Below are positions 8,815 to 54,170 of a stretch of DNA of 61,933 bases, in pieces. The notes beneath the pieces are model-generated. The model worked only from the letters and a program-made list of their open reading frames with translations. It had not been told where the DNA came from and ran no database searches. The stretch comes from a virus. Location of the stretch: positions 1-61,933 of the IMG/VR virus record IMGVR_UViG_3300007508_000433. One strand, written 5' to 3'. The translations under genes were made by a program, and so were the position numbers. The first letter of the stretch is position 1, and the number at the start of each line of letters is the position of its first letter.

Positions 8815-9138
8815 ATGGCTGCAACAAACAAAGACCTCAGGAGAGGTCAGGATGTTATTTTTGCGGATGGTGTGGAGAGGACCATTCATCCTTTGACCAT
8901 TAGGCAGTTACGGAAGTTTATGACCGTAGCTGATAAGCTTAATGTTGAAGATGATTCTGGTCTATCCGATGAGGACATTGACAATATGGTCCTCGCATCA
9001 TCTATTGCATTGCAAAAGGTAGATCCTGATTTGGCTAACGATAATGAAGCCCTTGAGGACGCTTTAGACTTGCGATGCTTTGCCGCTCTGATGGCTGCAA
9101 GCATGGGCAACGAGGTTGACGAAGCCCCAAACGAGTAG
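8815..9138 (+). CDS. Tail assembly chaperone, short (G-type) product
   Basis: 107 aa, ATG with aggtgtga upstream. 'DVIFADGVERTIHPLTIRQLRKFM' and 'DEDIDNMVLASSIALQKVDPDL' are typical of tail assembly chaperones that bind the tape measure during tail assembly. It ends at TAG 9136-9138 unless ribosomes shift at the heptamer just before the stop (see the fusion entry). Confidence 0.85.
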   Translation: MAATNKDLRRGQDVIFADGVERTIHPLTIRQLRKFMTVADKLNVEDDSGLSDEDIDNMVLASSIALQKVDPDLANDNEALEDALDLRCFAALMAASMGNEVDEAPNE

Positions 9139-9476
9139 GTGGAGAGGGAAATGATGGTACACCGTTTCAGTGGAGTACCTTCCCTCTCCACCACCTTGTT
9201 TTAGAGGCCTTTGTTACTGTCGGTGTTTGGAAAAGCATCGATGACATAGAGAACATATTAACGTTTCCAGAGCTGATTCATATTGTAGATATGATACGCA
9301 GCAAGAAGCATGCAGATTACGATCTGCTTGCTCAGGTTGTAACTGGTGAGGGTATAGGCGAGTATCAGTCTATGACTGATTTGGAAACATCATCTGGTTC
9401 TTCGTCAGATATGGCTCTGGACAGCGAGTTTACGATTTCACATCTACCCATCGGGCTTGGTTATGAAAGCCAATAG
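8815..9476 (+). CDS. Tail assembly chaperone, -1 frameshift fusion (GT-type)
   Basis: Joined reading: 8815-9132, then 9132-9476 in the -1 frame, 220 aa. The added 114 residues begin RVGGEGNDGTPFQWSTFPLH, continue 'VWKSIDDIENILTFPELIHIVDMIRSKK' and end 'ISHLPIGLGYESQ'. The second frame has no sensible start of its own near its 5' end (the first ATG, 9291, is mid-domain). This is the lambda G/GT arrangement conserved in siphoviruses; the tape measure follows at once. Confidence 0.9.
9126..9192 (+). promoter_or_regulatory. Programmed -1 frameshift signal
   Basis: Slippery heptamer C CCA AAC in the correct phase at 9126-9132. Five bases later begins a perfect 13-bp stem: GGTGGAGAGGGAA (9138-9150) with TTCCCTCTCCACC (9180-9192). 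A second inner stem GGTAC (9156-9160) with GTACC (9175-9179) stacks under it. Heptamer, spacer and stem make a textbook stimulated frameshift site. Confidence 0.93.
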
Positions 9477-38810: not shown

Positions 38811-38976
38811 TGATTGTCCACGTTGTAGCGATGAGGGTATCATTGTGTACCTTGAAGGAGCGGAGGAGGAGTCGTATAGGATAGTCGTTCCTTGGACTCT
38901 CATTGAGGAGACTATCTCCACGTTCGTCAGGGAGGCCGTAGAGGGCGCGAGTGAAGGTCCCTCCGATGAGTCGTGA
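38803..38976 (+). CDS. 57-aa CPRC protein
   Basis: ATG 38803 overlaps the previous gene by 8 bases. Starts 'MIDDCPRCSDEGIIVYLEGA' with one CxxC, acidic throughout. It overlaps the IMPDH-like gene by 26 bases. Function unknown. Confidence 0.55.
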   Translation: MIDDCPRCSDEGIIVYLEGAEEESYRIVVPWTLIEETISTFVREAVEGASEGPSDES

Positions 38977-39976
38977 GTATCTTAGTTTTGATGATGTCTT
39001 AATTGAGCCTCAGCATTCTGCTGTGCGTAGCCGGAGTGATGTTAGCCTTAAGACAAAACTGTATGATGGGTTTGAGTTGGATCTCCCCATTATTGCTTCT
39101 AATATGGATACTGTGTGTGAGTTGGATATGGCGATTGCGATGTCTGAGCTTGGCGGCTTGGGTGTGATTCATCGCAACTTGATTCATGCCACGCGTATTC
39201 ATTGTATACGCCAGTTAACGAGCATGGGTTTGGCTTCTGCTGTGGCTATGGGTGTTAACGAATTGCGTCTTTCTCCTGTGAGGCGGTATATTGAGGAGGG
39301 TGTCCGGTACATTGTGTTGGATATTGCTCATGGAGATTCTGTTCATGCTTTAAAGGCTGTGGAACAATTGAGGAGCATGTCTGATAAGCACGGCGGGGCT
39401 GTTTGTATCATTGGTGGCAATGTGGCTACTCCTGATGCTGTTGGCCGTATGGCTGATGCTGGTGCTCATTGTGTCAAGGTGGGGATCGGCCCGGGCGCAG
39501 CATGCTTGACGAGGATTAACACAGGGGTGGGTATACCTCAGCTGTCTGCCATTCTTGAGTGTTCTCATGCCGCAGATTTGCATGGCGTGGGGTGTATTGC
39601 TGATGGTGGTATGAAGACTCCGGGTGATATTGCTAAGGCTTTGGCTGCTGGTGCCGATGCTGTAATGCTTGGTGGAATGTTGGCTGGCACGTTTGAGTCT
39701 CCGGGTGATGTTGTGGATATTGATGGCGAAAAGTTTAAAACTTACCGAGGAATGGCATCGAATGGTGCGGGATCCATGTATATTGAGGGTGCTGAGGGTT
39801 TTGTTAAGTATAGCGGCAAGGCTGGGGATGTAGTAAACGATATTTCTGACGGTTTGCGTAGCGCTTTTTCATATGTTGGGGCTAGTGACATGGCCGAGTA
39901 CCACTCAAAAGCCCTTTTTGTGCGCATTTCTACGGCATCTATCCTCGAAAACGGCGCTCACGGTACTATTACATGA
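38951..39976 (+). CDS. IMP dehydrogenase/GMP reductase-like enzyme
   Basis: 341 aa from GTG 38951 (ATG 38966 also possible). TIM-barrel with '[20 protein letters not shown]', '[12 protein letters not shown]', active-site loop '[20 protein letters not shown]', phosphate site '[20 protein letters not shown]', 'VMLGGMLAG' and 'YRGMAS'. CBS domains are absent and the length is that of GMP reductases, but features of both branches occur. Either would shift purine supply for phage DNA synthesis. Confidence 0.85.
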
Positions 39977-44063: not shown

Positions 44064-44375
44064 ATGGTTAGTATCAGTAAGATTGATGATTTTCCTGCAG
44101 TAACCCGTGCGGGTCGCAGTACGGAAGAGGTGGTTATGGTTAGAGATGCTTTGAAGGAATCTCTTGAGAATGATCATAGCCCATTCGAGCTTAAGGGTGT
44201 TACTAAGGATGCTTATGGCTCATGGCAGCAGCGGATTCGCACTCAGGCTTACAAGCTTGGTGTAAATGTAGAGATTCGCTTTAGTGCTGACGAAGAGACA
44301 TTGGCTTTCCGCACTAAGGAGCTGAAGGCAAAGGATGAGGCTTCTGGTAAGGCTTCTGGTAAGGCTTCAAAGTAG
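44064..44375 (+). CDS. Monocistronic basic hypothetical protein
   Basis: 103 aa, caggagat upstream, own promoter and own terminator, suggesting high and separate expression. 'PAVTRAGRSTEEVVMVRDAL', 'SYGSWQQRIRTQAYKLG'-like middle, ends in an Ala-Ser-Gly-Lys repeat (ASGKASGKASK). It could be an abundant DNA-binding or regulatory protein; no family recognised. Confidence 0.7.
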   Translation: MVSISKIDDFPAVTRAGRSTEEVVMVRDALKESLENDHSPFELKGVTKDAYGSWQQRIRTQAYKLGVNVEIRFSADEETLAFRTKELKAKDEASGKASGKASK

Positions 44376-44402
44376 CATTACTTACCTCGTCTGTTAGAGA
44401 CC

Positions 44403-44439
44403 AAAAACCCCCGTGGCTTAAACGCTGCGGGGGTTTTTT
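44403..44439 (+). terminator. Rho-independent terminator
   Basis: AAAAACCCCCG (44403-44413) pairs perfectly with CGGGGGTTTTT (44428-44438) around a 14-base loop and is followed by T. The A-run makes it work in both directions. It closes the 44064 transcript. Confidence 0.93.
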
Positions 44440-44916
44440 GTTCTCTATTTTTATGCCGGGTTAAGAGTATCTATTGTGGACCCATATAAGGGGTATATAA
44501 AGCCCCTATATAAAGGGCGCACACTGCTCAGAGCTATCCTATCACTAAAAGTTGTTGATGCTTCTAACGTGTAATGATAATGATTCCATGTCAAAAATGT
44601 ATACTCAACTTGATGAAAGGGTAAGACTAATGGCCCGGTTGCTCTTATTATTAAGCCTTCTCCGTAGGGAAATATATACTCAATATAAGTATTGCCTATA
44701 ACATATTGCCGTGTTGCTCCCTTATTTTACTTTTATCTTTTGACTCCACTCAAGGAAGATATGTTTACTCAAATCACAACAGAGAGACATCAAGTCCGGC
44801 GCCCGCCATTATTTTTAACTTATACCCCTATGTCGGCACTGAGCAAATATGTCAACGCCCAGGACCAGGAATCTGCCATTACTTTTATCCTTTCACGTAT
44901 TGGCCGAACATTTGCA

Positions 44917-45193: not shown

Positions 45194-45631
45194 ATGACAA
45201 CCGAAGCAGATAACTATAAGTTTAATAATAAAGTATCAAAGGCAAACTTTGATGCTGTTTCTTCGCGTGCTATTACTGATAAGCGTAATCGTGTAAGGGC
45301 GCGTAAACTTATCGGTAAGATTATTCGTAAAAATGGTACTGATTATGGCCGCATTGTTGCCATCCACACTTTGGATAAAGATGGCGACAAGAGGCTAATA
45401 GTTATTACTGATAAGGACATCAAGATTGACGCTTTGTCTATCTTTAGGGTCCTAGATAGCGATAAGACTAGCGGCTTTATGTACCCTGATGGTACGGCGT
45501 ATTCTAAGAGAATAATGCGTGCGCCTAAAAGCAGGGGTGGTGGTCATGCAGTAACTGGTCGGCGTGAGATTGATGATAGGTCGGCACGTTACTATGAAAA
45601 TAACTACAAGGATGGAGGTCAGCCCAAATGA
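45194..45631 (+). CDS. First gene of early operon, unknown function
   Basis: 145 aa from ATG 45194 (gggagaag upstream; a longer frame from 45137 would start inside the -10 region). Basic N-terminus and a beta-rich centre ('RKLIGKIIRKNGTDYGRIVA', 'GDKRLIVITDKDIKIDALSI'), ending in a Gly/Arg-rich tail. First-expressed phage genes often target the host; no family recognised. Confidence 0.7.
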   Translation: MTTEADNYKFNNKVSKANFDAVSSRAITDKRNRVRARKLIGKIIRKNGTDYGRIVAIHTLDKDGDKRLIVITDKDIKIDALSIFRVLDSDKTSGFMYPDGTAYSKRIMRAPKSRGGGHAVTGRREIDDRSARYYENNYKDGGQPK

Positions 45632-47332: not shown

Positions 47333-47556
47333 TGACAGCACTATTGACATTCAATGAGTTTGCTGAAGGTGTTTCAAAGCAGACTTTTGACTTTGGTTAC
47401 GATGTGAGCGATTGGCGTCAAGGCCAATATTTTTTCAACGTTCTTTGCTCGTTGAACAATGATGTAGCAGAGAAGTTGCGTGGAGCAGGACTCGATCCTT
47501 TTCATAGGGATAAAGTTTCAATGGAAACATGGCAGTTCGTAGAAACGAACTGGTAA
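47332..47556 (+). CDS. 74-aa hypothetical protein
   Basis: TAATG junction. 'FDFGYDVSDWRQGQYFFNVL' and 'DPFHRDKVSMETWQFVETNW' are typical of a short phage family that reads like 'W R x GQ x xFN xL'; function unknown. Confidence 0.65.
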   Translation: MTALLTFNEFAEGVSKQTFDFGYDVSDWRQGQYFFNVLCSLNNDVAEKLRGAGLDPFHRDKVSMETWQFVETNW

Positions 47557-47578: not shown

Positions 47579-47848
47579 ATGAATAACGAAGCCATTAGGG
47601 TTTGTGCTGAGATAGCATATTCTACTGAGAGTGGCGCTGTCCATTCCGACGTTTGTCCACCCGGACATTTGTTTGAGAATATCGACAGCGAGGAGCGTAA
47701 GCTGTTGCATCAGTTTTTGGATGAATGGCTGAACGAATCTGGCGGCACTGGTTGTTTCTTTGTGGGTGATAGTGACTACTATCGCTTTATTCCTGATCAG
47801 AGCATTATTCCTGCGTTGGCGAAACTAATAGATCGGAGTAGATGGTGA
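47579..47848 (+). CDS. 89-aa hypothetical protein
   Basis: ATG 47579 with aaaggactga upstream. 'RVCAEIAYSTESGAVHSDVC', 'DSEERKLLHQFLDEWLNES'. It overlaps the next gene by 7 bases. Similar short proteins occur in actinophages; role unknown. Confidence 0.6.
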   Translation: MNNEAIRVCAEIAYSTESGAVHSDVCPPGHLFENIDSEERKLLHQFLDEWLNESGGTGCFFVGDSDYYRFIPDQSIIPALAKLIDRSRW

Positions 47849-49389
47849 GTTATATTAAGATAACTAACACTACATCAAGCGTGCCCAGATTGTATCTGGA
47901 GATTCTTGGTGTATCGACCAAGCGTGACAGCGACATTACTATCGGCCAGTTTGGTTCTGGTACAAAGTTTGCTCCTATTTACGCTTTGCGTGAGGGGTTG
48001 GAGTGGATTAATACTGGCTTTGATAGTCATGGTGGTTACACTATGTCGTATCAGGTTTCTGATGATAATGATGAAGGCCTGGATCTGGTCGAGTTTGTCT
48101 ATGAAGATATGGACGGACATATAACAAAAAAGCCTTCATCTTATTCTTTGGGTGCTGGCGAACTTGGATGGAATCATCCCTTCCAGATATTCCGTGAGGC
48201 TTTTGCTAACGCTCTGGATGCTCACTATGAGTTTGACGAAGGCTATTCTATTGACAGGGTTGATGAGATTGAACCTCCTGTTGAGGGTGAGTTTTCTGTT
48301 TACCTTACTGCTTCTGATGGTCTTATTGAAGTTGTTGATAACTTTGATAAGTATTTCTCCTTGGAGCGCACTCCTCTCTTTGAGGATAGCAGGGGGAACA
48401 AGGTTTATGAAAAGCTAATGTCTGTGCCTTATGATGGTGTTAGAATCTACCATAAGGGTGTTCTTGTTTATGGTGGAGAGCTTGAGCATGACGATACCCC
48501 TTCATTGTTTGATTATGATTTGAAGGAAGTTAGCCTTAATGAGGAGCGTCGTTTGAGTGATGTTTCTGCTAACGAGATATATACCATTGCTAAGATTATC
48601 GGTGAGAATGAGCATTACACTAACAGCACTGGAATAAGGCCGGTTGTTGATAGTATCATTGACAACTGCAATGAAAGTGAGAGCGGTAAGCCTGACGGCG
48701 TGTGGGAGTACAACTTTTCTTACGCTTTCAGGATGCAGCATTGGTATGATGTTCAGCCTCAAGATAGCGATTCATTCGGTAATCAGTTTGTGGCTGCGAT
48801 GACAGCCAAGTATTGTGATGAGACATATAGCGATATTGCATTTGTTAGCGATAGAGCTGCGGCATTCTATGAGATTGAGATTAATTTGAATGAGCGTGGG
48901 CGTAAAGCTATACCAGTTTCTGACTCTATGTATGAACTTCTAAACACTACTGGTGCTAAGGAGTGGATGGATAAAAACATACTTGGCGAAGAGTATGACA
49001 CTCCCTTTGTTGAGTTGGATGGTATTGATCTTGAGGTGTTTAACTTTGCATATGAGAGTGTCGCTGAATATGACACTGACATATTGAACATCCCCGTAAA
49101 GATTATGCAAAGCACAGCTTACAATACCGGTATTCAGGGTAAGGCTATGAATGTGCATGACGACAGCAAAAGAACTGTTATTGCTTTGAGTCAGGCATTG
49201 ATTGAAGGTCGGAATATGCAGCAAATTATTGCTACTATGCTACATGAACTTGATCATGCTGTTACTGGTGCTGCAGATAACACTAGGGCTTTCCGCGACG
49301 CTGCAGATAATCGCCTAGGTGATCTAATCATCAGGCACTACTGTAGCAAGGTGGATTTGGCTAAACTAGTTAACAAGACGGAGGTGTAA
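47842..49389 (+). CDS. Bergerat-type ATPase motifs with C-terminal HExxH zincin domain
   Basis: 515 aa, the largest early gene. Residues 34-44 (IGQFGSGTKFA) look like the glycine-rich G2 lid of GHKL ATPases (IGxFGxG), and 119-127 (EAFANALDA) like the N-box (ExxxNxxDA), followed by 'IEVVDNFDKY'. The order is lid then N-box, the reverse of HSP90/MutL/gyrase, suggesting a permuted fold. At 468-472 HELDH (in 'TMLHELDHAVTG') is a zinc-metallopeptidase motif. An ATP-dependent protease or anti-host factor is possible; activity is not proven. Confidence 0.65.
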   Translation: MVSYIKITNTTSSVPRLYLEILGVSTKRDSDITIGQFGSGTKFAPIYALREGLEWINTGFDSHGGYTMSYQVSDDNDEGLDLVEFVYEDMDGHITKKPSSYSLGAGELGWNHPFQIFREAFANALDAHYEFDEGYSIDRVDEIEPPVEGEFSVYLTASDGLIEVVDNFDKYFSLERTPLFEDSRGNKVYEKLMSVPYDGVRIYHKGVLVYGGELEHDDTPSLFDYDLKEVSLNEERRLSDVSANEIYTIAKIIGENEHYTNSTGIRPVVDSIIDNCNESESGKPDGVWEYNFSYAFRMQHWYDVQPQDSDSFGNQFVAAMTAKYCDETYSDIAFVSDRAAAFYEIEINLNERGRKAIPVSDSMYELLNTTGAKEWMDKNILGEEYDTPFVELDGIDLEVFNFAYESVAEYDTDILNIPVKIMQSTAYNTGIQGKAMNVHDDSKRTVIALSQALIEGRNMQQIIATMLHELDHAVTGAADNTRAFRDAADNRLGDLIIRHYCSKVDLAKLVNKTEV

Positions 49390-50251: not shown

Positions 50252-50632
50252 ATGACTGATACTGCAGAAGTAACGAGTGATCAGGATGCCAATGATCATT
50301 ATAGTAGCTATACCGAATTGGTGGGTGATTATCTTGAAGTTATCAATGACAATGTTGATGATGATGACGCCCTTGAGGAAAATCTTCACTATCTAGAGTG
50401 CATGATGCTTGCAAGAGATGAGCATAGGGTTATTGATGTTTGTCTTGCTACAGGTGGGCCAGCGGTTCATGTCTTATACCACATTAAAGACAAAGAGATA
50501 ATAAACATTGTATTCAAGTTCGTAGACTGGTTCTACGTAAAAGAGTTTAAGGTCAGCCCTGGCTCTAAAGAGTGGGCTATCTGGGAAGATGCAGCGCAGT
50601 ACTTTATCATAGATATTCTTGAGGAGTGGTGA
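50252..50632 (+). CDS. 126-aa acidic hypothetical protein
   Basis: ATG 50252 with ggggtgaag upstream. 'VGDYLEVINDNVDDDDALEE', 'VLYHIKDKEIINIVFKFVDW'. No family recognised. Its stop overlaps the next short frame. Confidence 0.65.
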   Translation: MTDTAEVTSDQDANDHYSSYTELVGDYLEVINDNVDDDDALEENLHYLECMMLARDEHRVIDVCLATGGPAVHVLYHIKDKEIINIVFKFVDWFYVKEFKVSPGSKEWAIWEDAAQYFIIDILEEW

Positions 50633-50727
50633 TGAATAACGAGCTGGCTTTGTTGAAGAGAAGCCCGCAGAGGATTATCCCACAGAGAGGCCACATTACG
50701 AATAGCTCTAACGGTTTGTCGGGCTAA
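50632..50727 (+). CDS. 31-aa short open frame
   Basis: ATG overlaps the previous stop (TGATG) with gaggagtgg upstream. Encodes MNNELALLKRSPQRIIPQRG and eleven more residues. Signals fit, but coding character is weak; it is the last frame before a regulatory gap. Confidence 0.4.
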   Translation: MNNELALLKRSPQRIIPQRGHITNSSNGLSG

Positions 50728-50870
50728 GTCTGGTAATCCTTAATCCAGATTAAGGACAGCCTGCATGTCATTTGATCGTTTACGGTCAGTGACTTGTTAA
50801 CGAGTTTTCGTCATCGTGTCCCAAAGGTTGTCCGCCCGACTGTTCTATACTAATAGTGATTGGAGATCAC
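50728..50870 (+). promoter_or_regulatory. Gap with alternative hairpins and promoter-like box
   Basis: CCTTAAT (50738-50744) and ATTAAGG (50749-50755) form a hairpin. TCTGG (50729-50733) can instead pair with CCAGA (50745-50749), which is mutually exclusive with it. Downstream, TATACT near 50846 and ggagatcac precede ATG 50871. An attenuator-like switch followed by a second promoter is possible. Confidence 0.45.
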
Positions 50871-51014
50871 ATGGAAGATGATGAGAGTTTTATTATACTG
50901 GATGAAGAGAGGTGGGATGAGTTGATGGCCATGCTTGATGCTCCCCCTAAACGTCTCCCAGGTCTATTAAAGCTAATGCGGTCAAAGATGCCGTGGAGTG
51001 ATGATGGAAAATAA
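50871..51014 (+). CDS. Stand-alone toxin-neutralising half of a DUF1778/TacA antitoxin
   Basis: 47 aa, tggaga upstream. 'FIILDEERWDELMAMLDAPP' then 'KRLPGLLKLMRSKMPW' follows the C-terminal half of DUF1778 (TacA) antitoxins, the part that wraps the GNAT toxin. The N-terminal ribbon-helix-helix DNA-binding half is absent, and no GNAT acetyltransferase lies nearby. It may therefore be a phage-made antidote to host TacT-like toxins. Family match from memory; function inferred. Confidence 0.65.
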   Translation: MEDDESFIILDEERWDELMAMLDAPPKRLPGLLKLMRSKMPWSDDGK

Positions 51015-51138
51015 GCATACACATCCCCCGATAAAGGGGTGCTTGGTGCCAGATGAGTACATGGCTGATTGGCTTAATTGTCATGTTTGTCATGACGACC
51101 TTGATGCATACATGGAGGAAGATAATGAATCTATATGA
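51001..51138 (+). CDS. 45-aa CHVC protein
   Basis: ATG 51001 (ATG 51004 also), overlapping both neighbours by 14 bases. Ends 'ADWLNCHVCHDDLDAYMEED'. One CxxC pair plus upstream Cys and His suggest metal binding. Confidence 0.5.
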   Translation: MMENKHTHPPIKGCLVPDEYMADWLNCHVCHDDLDAYMEEDNESI

Positions 51139-51307: not shown

Positions 51308-51506
51308 GAAACTATATGTATATGATCCTATAGGTCATGACTTGTATGACGGTAGAACGTCATGTATTGCTGGCACTGTTGTTGTTAAGGTGCAGCCTCC
51401 GGGGTGTCCTGTGAATGGAACAATGAAGCATTGCTATATTGCAGACGCTGAAACTGGGGGTTTCTATGGCCTAGTTTTGGAGAATAGCTTGGTGCCTTGT
51501 GAGTAG
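51294..51506 (+). CDS. 70-aa hypothetical protein
   Basis: ATG 51294 or 51297, gaggcgg upstream. 'GKKLYVYDPIGHDLYDGRTS' and 'VQPPGCPVNGTMKHCYIADA' suggest a small beta-barrel. Overlaps the next gene by 8 bases. Confidence 0.6.
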   Translation: MMVGKKLYVYDPIGHDLYDGRTSCIAGTVVVKVQPPGCPVNGTMKHCYIADAETGGFYGLVLENSLVPCE

Positions 51507-51954
51507 TAATGATAGCGCACCAGAAGGTATGGTGGATGTGCAGGATGCAGTAACGTCCTTGCATCTAATATCTACTATGATCGGCAGTCATCGTCATAAG
51601 GGGTTCAATAGTATCCTTAGGAGTTTGCGCTCTATTGGGTTTTCTGATGAGACATCATATTACATGATGTGCTATGTGTTGTGTGTTGTCTATCACGAGT
51701 TTGAATCTTCTGTAAATGATTCGATGGACTTGCTGGAGCGGGTGGACTTCCAGTTGGAGCAACTGTTTCAGTTAAATGAGTTCGAGCCATTTGTTGAGGC
51801 TGTAAGAAATATCTATCATGTTGATGATGAGACTCCGTTTGGGGCTATGAGGCCTGCTTGGAAGGAGCATTTTAAGTCAAGATACAACAAGTATTGGAGG
51901 AAGTATTTGAACGGGCATCCCAAGTCAATACCTTACTATGATAAGGAGAAGTAG
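51499..51954 (+). CDS. 151-aa hypothetical protein
   Basis: GTG 51499. Helical with a hydrophobic stretch 'YYMMCYVLCVVYHEF' and a charged tail 'HFKSRYNKYWRKYLNGHPKS'. No family recognised. Confidence 0.6.
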   Translation: MSSNDSAPEGMVDVQDAVTSLHLISTMIGSHRHKGFNSILRSLRSIGFSDETSYYMMCYVLCVVYHEFESSVNDSMDLLERVDFQLEQLFQLNEFEPFVEAVRNIYHVDDETPFGAMRPAWKEHFKSRYNKYWRKYLNGHPKSIPYYDKEK

Positions 51955-53881: not shown

Positions 53882-54170
53882 GAGCATTGTGGAGCAAATA
53901 GGCAATTGGAAGATCATTGATGATGATGGAAACACGCTTGTAAAGGTTATTAGTTTCCCGGCAGGCAACTCTGGCTTTGCAGGTGAATCAATGTGGGTAG
54001 AGGTGGTTGATGGTAATGAGAATAGCGGTAGCGGCTATTTGAGAAACACGCCAGCGTTCTGTGATATTGAATACGGAGCGTTGGTTCGTTTTGATGGTGG
54101 CACTGATGACATCAAGCCACATTTTACCGGTATAGTCAATATAGACAATGAGGAGGTCGGCAATGTCTGA
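53871..54170 (+). CDS. 99-aa hypothetical protein
   Basis: ATG 53871 inside the end of the previous gene. Beta-rich: 'IGNWKIIDDDGNTLVKVISF', 'SMWVEVVDGNENSGSGYLRN', 'FCDIEYGALVRFDGGTDD'. Similar to a small actinophage family of unknown function. Confidence 0.6.
   Translation: MDVRSIVEQIGNWKIIDDDGNTLVKVISFPAGNSGFAGESMWVEVVDGNENSGSGYLRNTPAFCDIEYGALVRFDGGTDDIKPHFTGIVNIDNEEVGNV

Follow-up and report, generated by a model that had tools for sequence, protein, structure and literature searches.

A phage-encoded 47-residue protein corresponding to the toxin-binding half of TacA antitoxins

The window analysed here, a virus record of 61,933 bases that is classed as linear and is possibly a fragment, encodes a stand-alone 47-aa protein at 50871..51014 (+). 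Its ORF, a Pfam match, relatives in bacteria and our own HMM strongly support its identification as the toxin-binding half of a TacA (TacA1/DUF1778) antitoxin that has lost the ribbon-helix-helix (RHH) domain, and no partner toxin was found. In TacA antitoxins, the C-terminal part grips a translation-blocking toxin and the RHH domain is the DNA-binding part. Because the phage protein is the toxin-gripping part of TacA and comes with neither the DNA-binding part nor a toxin gene, the phage would probably be able to disarm a host toxin.

A gene for the C-terminal segment of TacA

The 47-aa ORF, whose product is MEDDESFIILDEERWDELMAMLDAPPKRLPGLLKLMRSKMPWSDDGK, lies on the plus strand exactly where the preliminary description had placed it, with an ATG at 50871 and a TAA ending at 51014. 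A Shine-Dalgarno-like GGAG site was read from the sequence 5 nt before the ATG (50862..50865, +). The codon score of the 47-aa frame is +0.15 bits per codon, like that of the phage's own genes, and the remaining five frames over the ORF are not coding-like (-0.34 to -1.43 bits per codon). The ORF is preceded by a non-coding gap of about 237 nt between two genes (50633..50870, +). Translations of these 237 nt showed no RHH remnant in any of the three forward frames, and the codon scores are negative in all three, so a frameshifted upstream RHH domain was rejected as the origin of the short ORF. Given the codon usage, the HMM rank described below and the lack of an upstream RHH remnant, the ORF very probably represents a real gene, with no support for truncation by a frameshift. 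The next ORF (51001..51138, +) encodes a CxxC-type protein of 45 aa without a Pfam match, and its 14-nt overlap with the 47-aa ORF suggests co-translation in one operon. Matches to C-box/D-box snoRNA over the gene were sub-threshold and were disregarded.

Pfam assigned the protein to a single family, PF08681 (TacA1/DUF1778), with E=1.4e-7 and 31.8 bits, above the curated cut-off of 21 bits. Residues 4-37 of the protein (50880..50981, +) align only with positions 43-76 of the 80-position profile, indicating that the N-terminal RHH part is absent. The protein therefore has the family score and the C-terminal toxin-binding segment, and lacks both the RHH domain and an adjacent GNAT toxin gene; since the RHH domain was checked for and is absent, it falls short of a full TacA antitoxin. 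The confined match and the lack of an upstream remnant bear out the earlier claim that only the C-terminal half of DUF1778 is present.

An HMM of bacterial TacA C-termini was constructed with the phage sequence left out and run against 15,617 six-frame ORFs from the window and the fetched phage loci. The 47-aa ORF ranked first (46 bits, E=2.5e-12), and the ORF ranked second is a known full-length phage TacA. Alignment of the phage protein with five TacA antitoxins gave 17 invariant columns, a count that takes in the phage row itself, including AMLDAPPK and a near-terminal W. The shortness of the ORF would allow a random sequence to resemble TacA by chance, but the Pfam and HMM E values (1.4e-7 and 2.5e-12), the coding signal and tblastn matches to annotated plasmid DUF1778 genes, down to 1e-4, make this explanation extremely improbable.

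Among PDB entries, the protein matched TacA/DUF1778 chains. The entries 7ak8, 9ilr and 6gtq each contain a GNAT chain together with a separate TacA/DUF1778 chain, of 39, 42 and 46 residues, respectively, and the extent of the phage protein approximates that of these isolated antitoxin chains. An AlphaFold2 model predicts helices at residues 12-23 and 30-37 with a mean pLDDT of 72. Foldseek returned no match for this model, as expected for two short helices, and neither NCBIfam nor PADLOC matched the 47-aa peptide.

Genomic setting

The genes of the window include those for a tape-measure protein, a helicase, a DnaE-type polymerase and a terminase. The polymerase and terminase are 38-39% identical to those of Streptomyces phages, and the phage backbone is distantly akin to Streptomyces and Gordonia phages; IMG/VR holds 74 relatives of the terminase. 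The preliminary description saw no GNAT toxin gene beside the ORF, and searches with PF00583 and PF13508 came back empty across the whole 61.9-kb record, while both profiles gave matches in 14 of 14 control genomes. If the record is a fragment, which is possible, a GNAT gene could lie elsewhere in the phage. The ORFs adjoining the mini-antitoxin gene had no Pfam match above cut-off, and none of them stood out as a candidate partner.

Two conserved phage genes flank the region: upstream, a gene for 126 aa (50252..50632, +) with homologues in the related records L020, L023, L032 and L033, and downstream, a gene for 151 aa (51499..51954, +) with a homologue in L020. In the syntenic relative L020 both flanking genes are kept, with different small ORFs and no TacA between them, and in L023 the homologue of the upstream gene is followed by other genes. 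PF08681 was found in none of the 54 distinct related records, most of which are fragments. From these comparisons, the mini-antitoxin gene sits in variable accessory content, and it is known from one phage only. A phage antitoxin mimic is expected to be encoded in an accessory region without a toxin, as was found here with the two GNAT families and the L020 comparison.

Within the gap before the gene, a 124-nt stretch at 50717..50840 (+) is a leader candidate with a strong, multi-branched predicted fold (-49.4 kcal/mol, z -5.95 against shuffles) and a GUCGGGC/GCCCGAC closing helix; it had no Rfam match and no homologue in the fetched loci. A coarse fold scan also gave z near -5 to -7.6 at about 44331-44516, 45323-45446, 9115-9238, 54003-54126 and 47431-47554 (+), and the phage may thus carry several structured RNAs or terminators. 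Since several stretches score as well or better in that scan, the fold at 50717-50840 is not unique and is at most a candidate for a link to the mini-antitoxin gene. Other features of the window were also observed. A 515-aa protein (47842-49389, +), about 54% conserved in relatives, looks GHKL-ATPase-like by eye in its N-terminal half (GQFGSGTKFAP, EAFANALDAHYE) and has a zincin-like HExxH motif (MLHELDH) in its C-terminal part, where SprT-like and WLM matches are sub-threshold; this combination is unusual. An enzyme of the IMP dehydrogenase/GMP reductase family is encoded at 38951-39976 (+) (E 2.4e-94). Positions 1-2000 have a G+C content of 63% compared to 42-50% elsewhere; this part covers a protein that is rich in glycine and contains an fn3 domain.

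Relatives in bacteria, plasmids and other phages

Scanning 84,980 bacterial and archaeal species genomes with the peptide yielded six confirmed relatives with 43-53% identity, from Propionivibrio, Nitrosospira, two Stenotrophomonas, a gammaproteobacterium and an acidobacterium. Five of the six are C-termini of full-length TacA proteins with a GNAT gene directly downstream; at one locus (L005) the GNAT ORF is given from an internal ATG. On plasmids, tblastn matched 26 records; most of the matches are annotated as DUF1778, and in many cases they overlap a gene annotated as GNAT. The preliminary description had likened the peptide to actinobacterial DUF1778 antitoxins, but the closest sequences found are beta- and gammaproteobacterial plus one acidobacterial, and an actinobacterial origin is supported by neither the genome scan nor the plasmid search. 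Compared to the type II GNAT antitoxins TacA, AtaR and KacA (DUF1778, PF08681), the phage protein shares the C-terminal toxin-binding segment at the above identity, with the same invariant residues, but it is phage-encoded and has no RHH DNA-binding domain and no adjoining toxin gene.

Tail-only TacA proteins also occur in bacteria. A set of 432 genomes, sampled from the class and the phylum of two relatives, gave 102 PF08681 matches, of which six cover the profile only from position 35 or later; these six include the acidobacterial genome that was itself fetched with the phage peptide. Also among the six is an acidobacterial genome (L098, L099) with two tail-only TacA ORFs, each directly preceded by a gene that carries a Fic-like motif (HPFLDGNGRMGR), and no GNAT-like ORF was recognised near them in the listed stretches; the TacA tail may possibly have been recruited there by another toxin type. 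At a further bacterial locus (L095, 3947-4267, +), a 106-aa ORF combines a TacA-tail-like segment with a part that by eye resembles the C-terminus of a VapB/AbrB-type antitoxin.

Two other phage records encode tail-only proteins whose PF08681 scores are just above the cut-off. The protein of GX15bay has 63 aa (profile positions 43-77, 22.6 bits), and that of IMGVR_UViG_3300025174_000969 (L121; 6536-6832, -) has 99 aa (positions 46-75, 22.1 bits), with the TacA tail in its N-terminal part followed by an unrelated C-terminal part. Like the 47-aa protein, both have the tail segment only and no RHH domain, and no GNAT gene was recognised beside them; unlike it, they are divergent in sequence, score more weakly and, in L121, carry the extra C-terminal part. 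L121 was found through a degenerate DNA pattern for WDxLxxxLDxPP, as was L117, which encodes a full-length TacA; the other matches to the pattern were mostly unrelated proteins. The phages Dfl-JY45 and Cyrano encode complete TacA-GNAT pairs. IMG/VR was also scanned, by single protein and by alignment, using the phage peptide, TacA C-termini and P0001 as queries. No relatives were confirmed, within the limits that such a short query sets, and a consensus TacA tail had no match in phage records. Matches in Klebsiella phage (H2/H3) were rejected as TacA because they are YqeY-like.

Proposed role and its significance

We consider it fairly probable that the phage carries in this protein a TacA antitoxin freed of DNA binding, which acts as an antidote by binding and blocking a host GNAT toxin during infection. 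An antidote to host TacT-like toxins is the most economical reading, and it gains weight from the similar extent of the antitoxin peptides in PDB entries with GNAT toxins, the accessory location and the two further phage cases. For toxin binding, inhibition, timing and host, we infer the following course. During infection, the 47-aa protein would bind a host GNAT toxin of the TacT/AtaT/KacT type through its two-helix C-terminal TacA segment, and the bound toxin would be blocked from acetylating aminoacyl-tRNA, so that phage translation could go on if the host TacA were lost or the module triggered. Having no RHH domain, the protein would not bind the tacAT operator, and its supply would therefore be free of the limits of toxin-antitoxin autoregulation, making it a pure antidote; the action without autorepression envisaged in the preliminary description would likewise follow from the missing domain. 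TacA-TacT pairs are often specific and cross-neutralisation is exceptional; an auxiliary interface at helix 4 of TacT has been held responsible for the specificity (PMC9431474), so a broad activity of the 47-aa protein is unlikely. AtaRT forms a multimeric complex, in which the antitoxin tails touch two sites on the toxin (PMC10135005). By analogy, a monomer without RHH may bind the toxin more weakly, the loss of the RHH dimer costing affinity.

Toxin binding might also benefit the phage in ways other than countering host defence, by titrating the toxin from the host TacA-TacT repressor complex or by guarding against a TacAT system of a competing phage or plasmid. Complete TacA-GNAT pairs do occur on phages (Dfl-JY45 and Cyrano) and on plasmids, and AtaRT regulates itself according to the stoichiometry of toxin and antitoxin (PMC10135005), but nothing within the window points to a co-resident element, and we regard this explanation as unlikely. 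That the gene is a functionless, decaying remnant of a full-length tacA captured by the phage appears quite unlikely. The RHH domain is lost, a single copy is known, the adjoining 237-nt non-coding gap is unusual in a dense genome and partial PF08681 matches from position 35 or later occur in bacteria too (6 of 102); against decay, the ATG, GGAG site and stop are all intact, codon usage is coding-like, consensus-like residues are preserved across the whole toxin-binding segment, no frame upstream holds RHH debris and the next gene overlaps.

The TacA-type tail might instead have been recruited to bind some protein of the phage or host that is not a GNAT toxin. This would agree with the two tail-only ORFs located after Fic-like genes in an acidobacterial genome, where the listed stretches showed no recognisable GNAT-like ORF, and with the 99-aa protein of L121, which begins with the tail and has a different C-terminal part. 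However, the phage protein is closest to antitoxins with a GNAT neighbour and none of the genes beside it was recognised as a candidate partner, and we judge such recruitment very unlikely.

Phage antitoxin mimics are known, including Dmd of T4 and the pseudo-ToxI of phiTE (PMC10286901). In both, a phage product stands in for the antitoxin and keeps a host toxin off, the role proposed here for the 47-aa protein; unlike that protein, neither is a trimmed TacA, the target of Dmd being RnlA/LsoA and the phiTE product an RNA (PMC10286901). Closer to the present case, the lytic cyanophage S-CREM1 encodes a solo TacA that was proposed to counter a host toxin, and the table of that paper shows no TacA-TacT system in its host (PMC9964418). 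The suggested role is the same as for the phage protein described here, whereas the parts of the paper bearing on the S-CREM1 gene speak of TacA and describe no truncation (PMC9964418). No description of a TacA without RHH in a phage was found in the open-licence papers searched. Thus, solo phage TacA and antitoxin mimics were already known, and a phage TacA without its RHH half would, as far as those papers go, be a new form of them.

The 47-aa, GX15bay and L121 proteins raise the idea, which we hold tentatively and with some doubt, that unrelated phages have repeatedly cut TacA to its bare toxin-grip. The resulting proteins would make up a class of minimal inhibitors that are directed at tRNA-acetylating toxins and act without DNA binding. 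To our knowledge, anti-phage activity is less well established for GNAT (TacT-type) toxins than for other toxin-antitoxin systems. A phage keeping the toxin-binding part of TacA alone would be natural evidence that GNAT toxins hurt phages, and if the repeated reduction is true, these toxins would exert anti-phage pressure in nature. The phage protein would also offer a ready-made inhibitor of 47 residues and, if it works, short phage TacA tails, which ordinary annotation misses, would be worth cataloguing as anti-defence genes.
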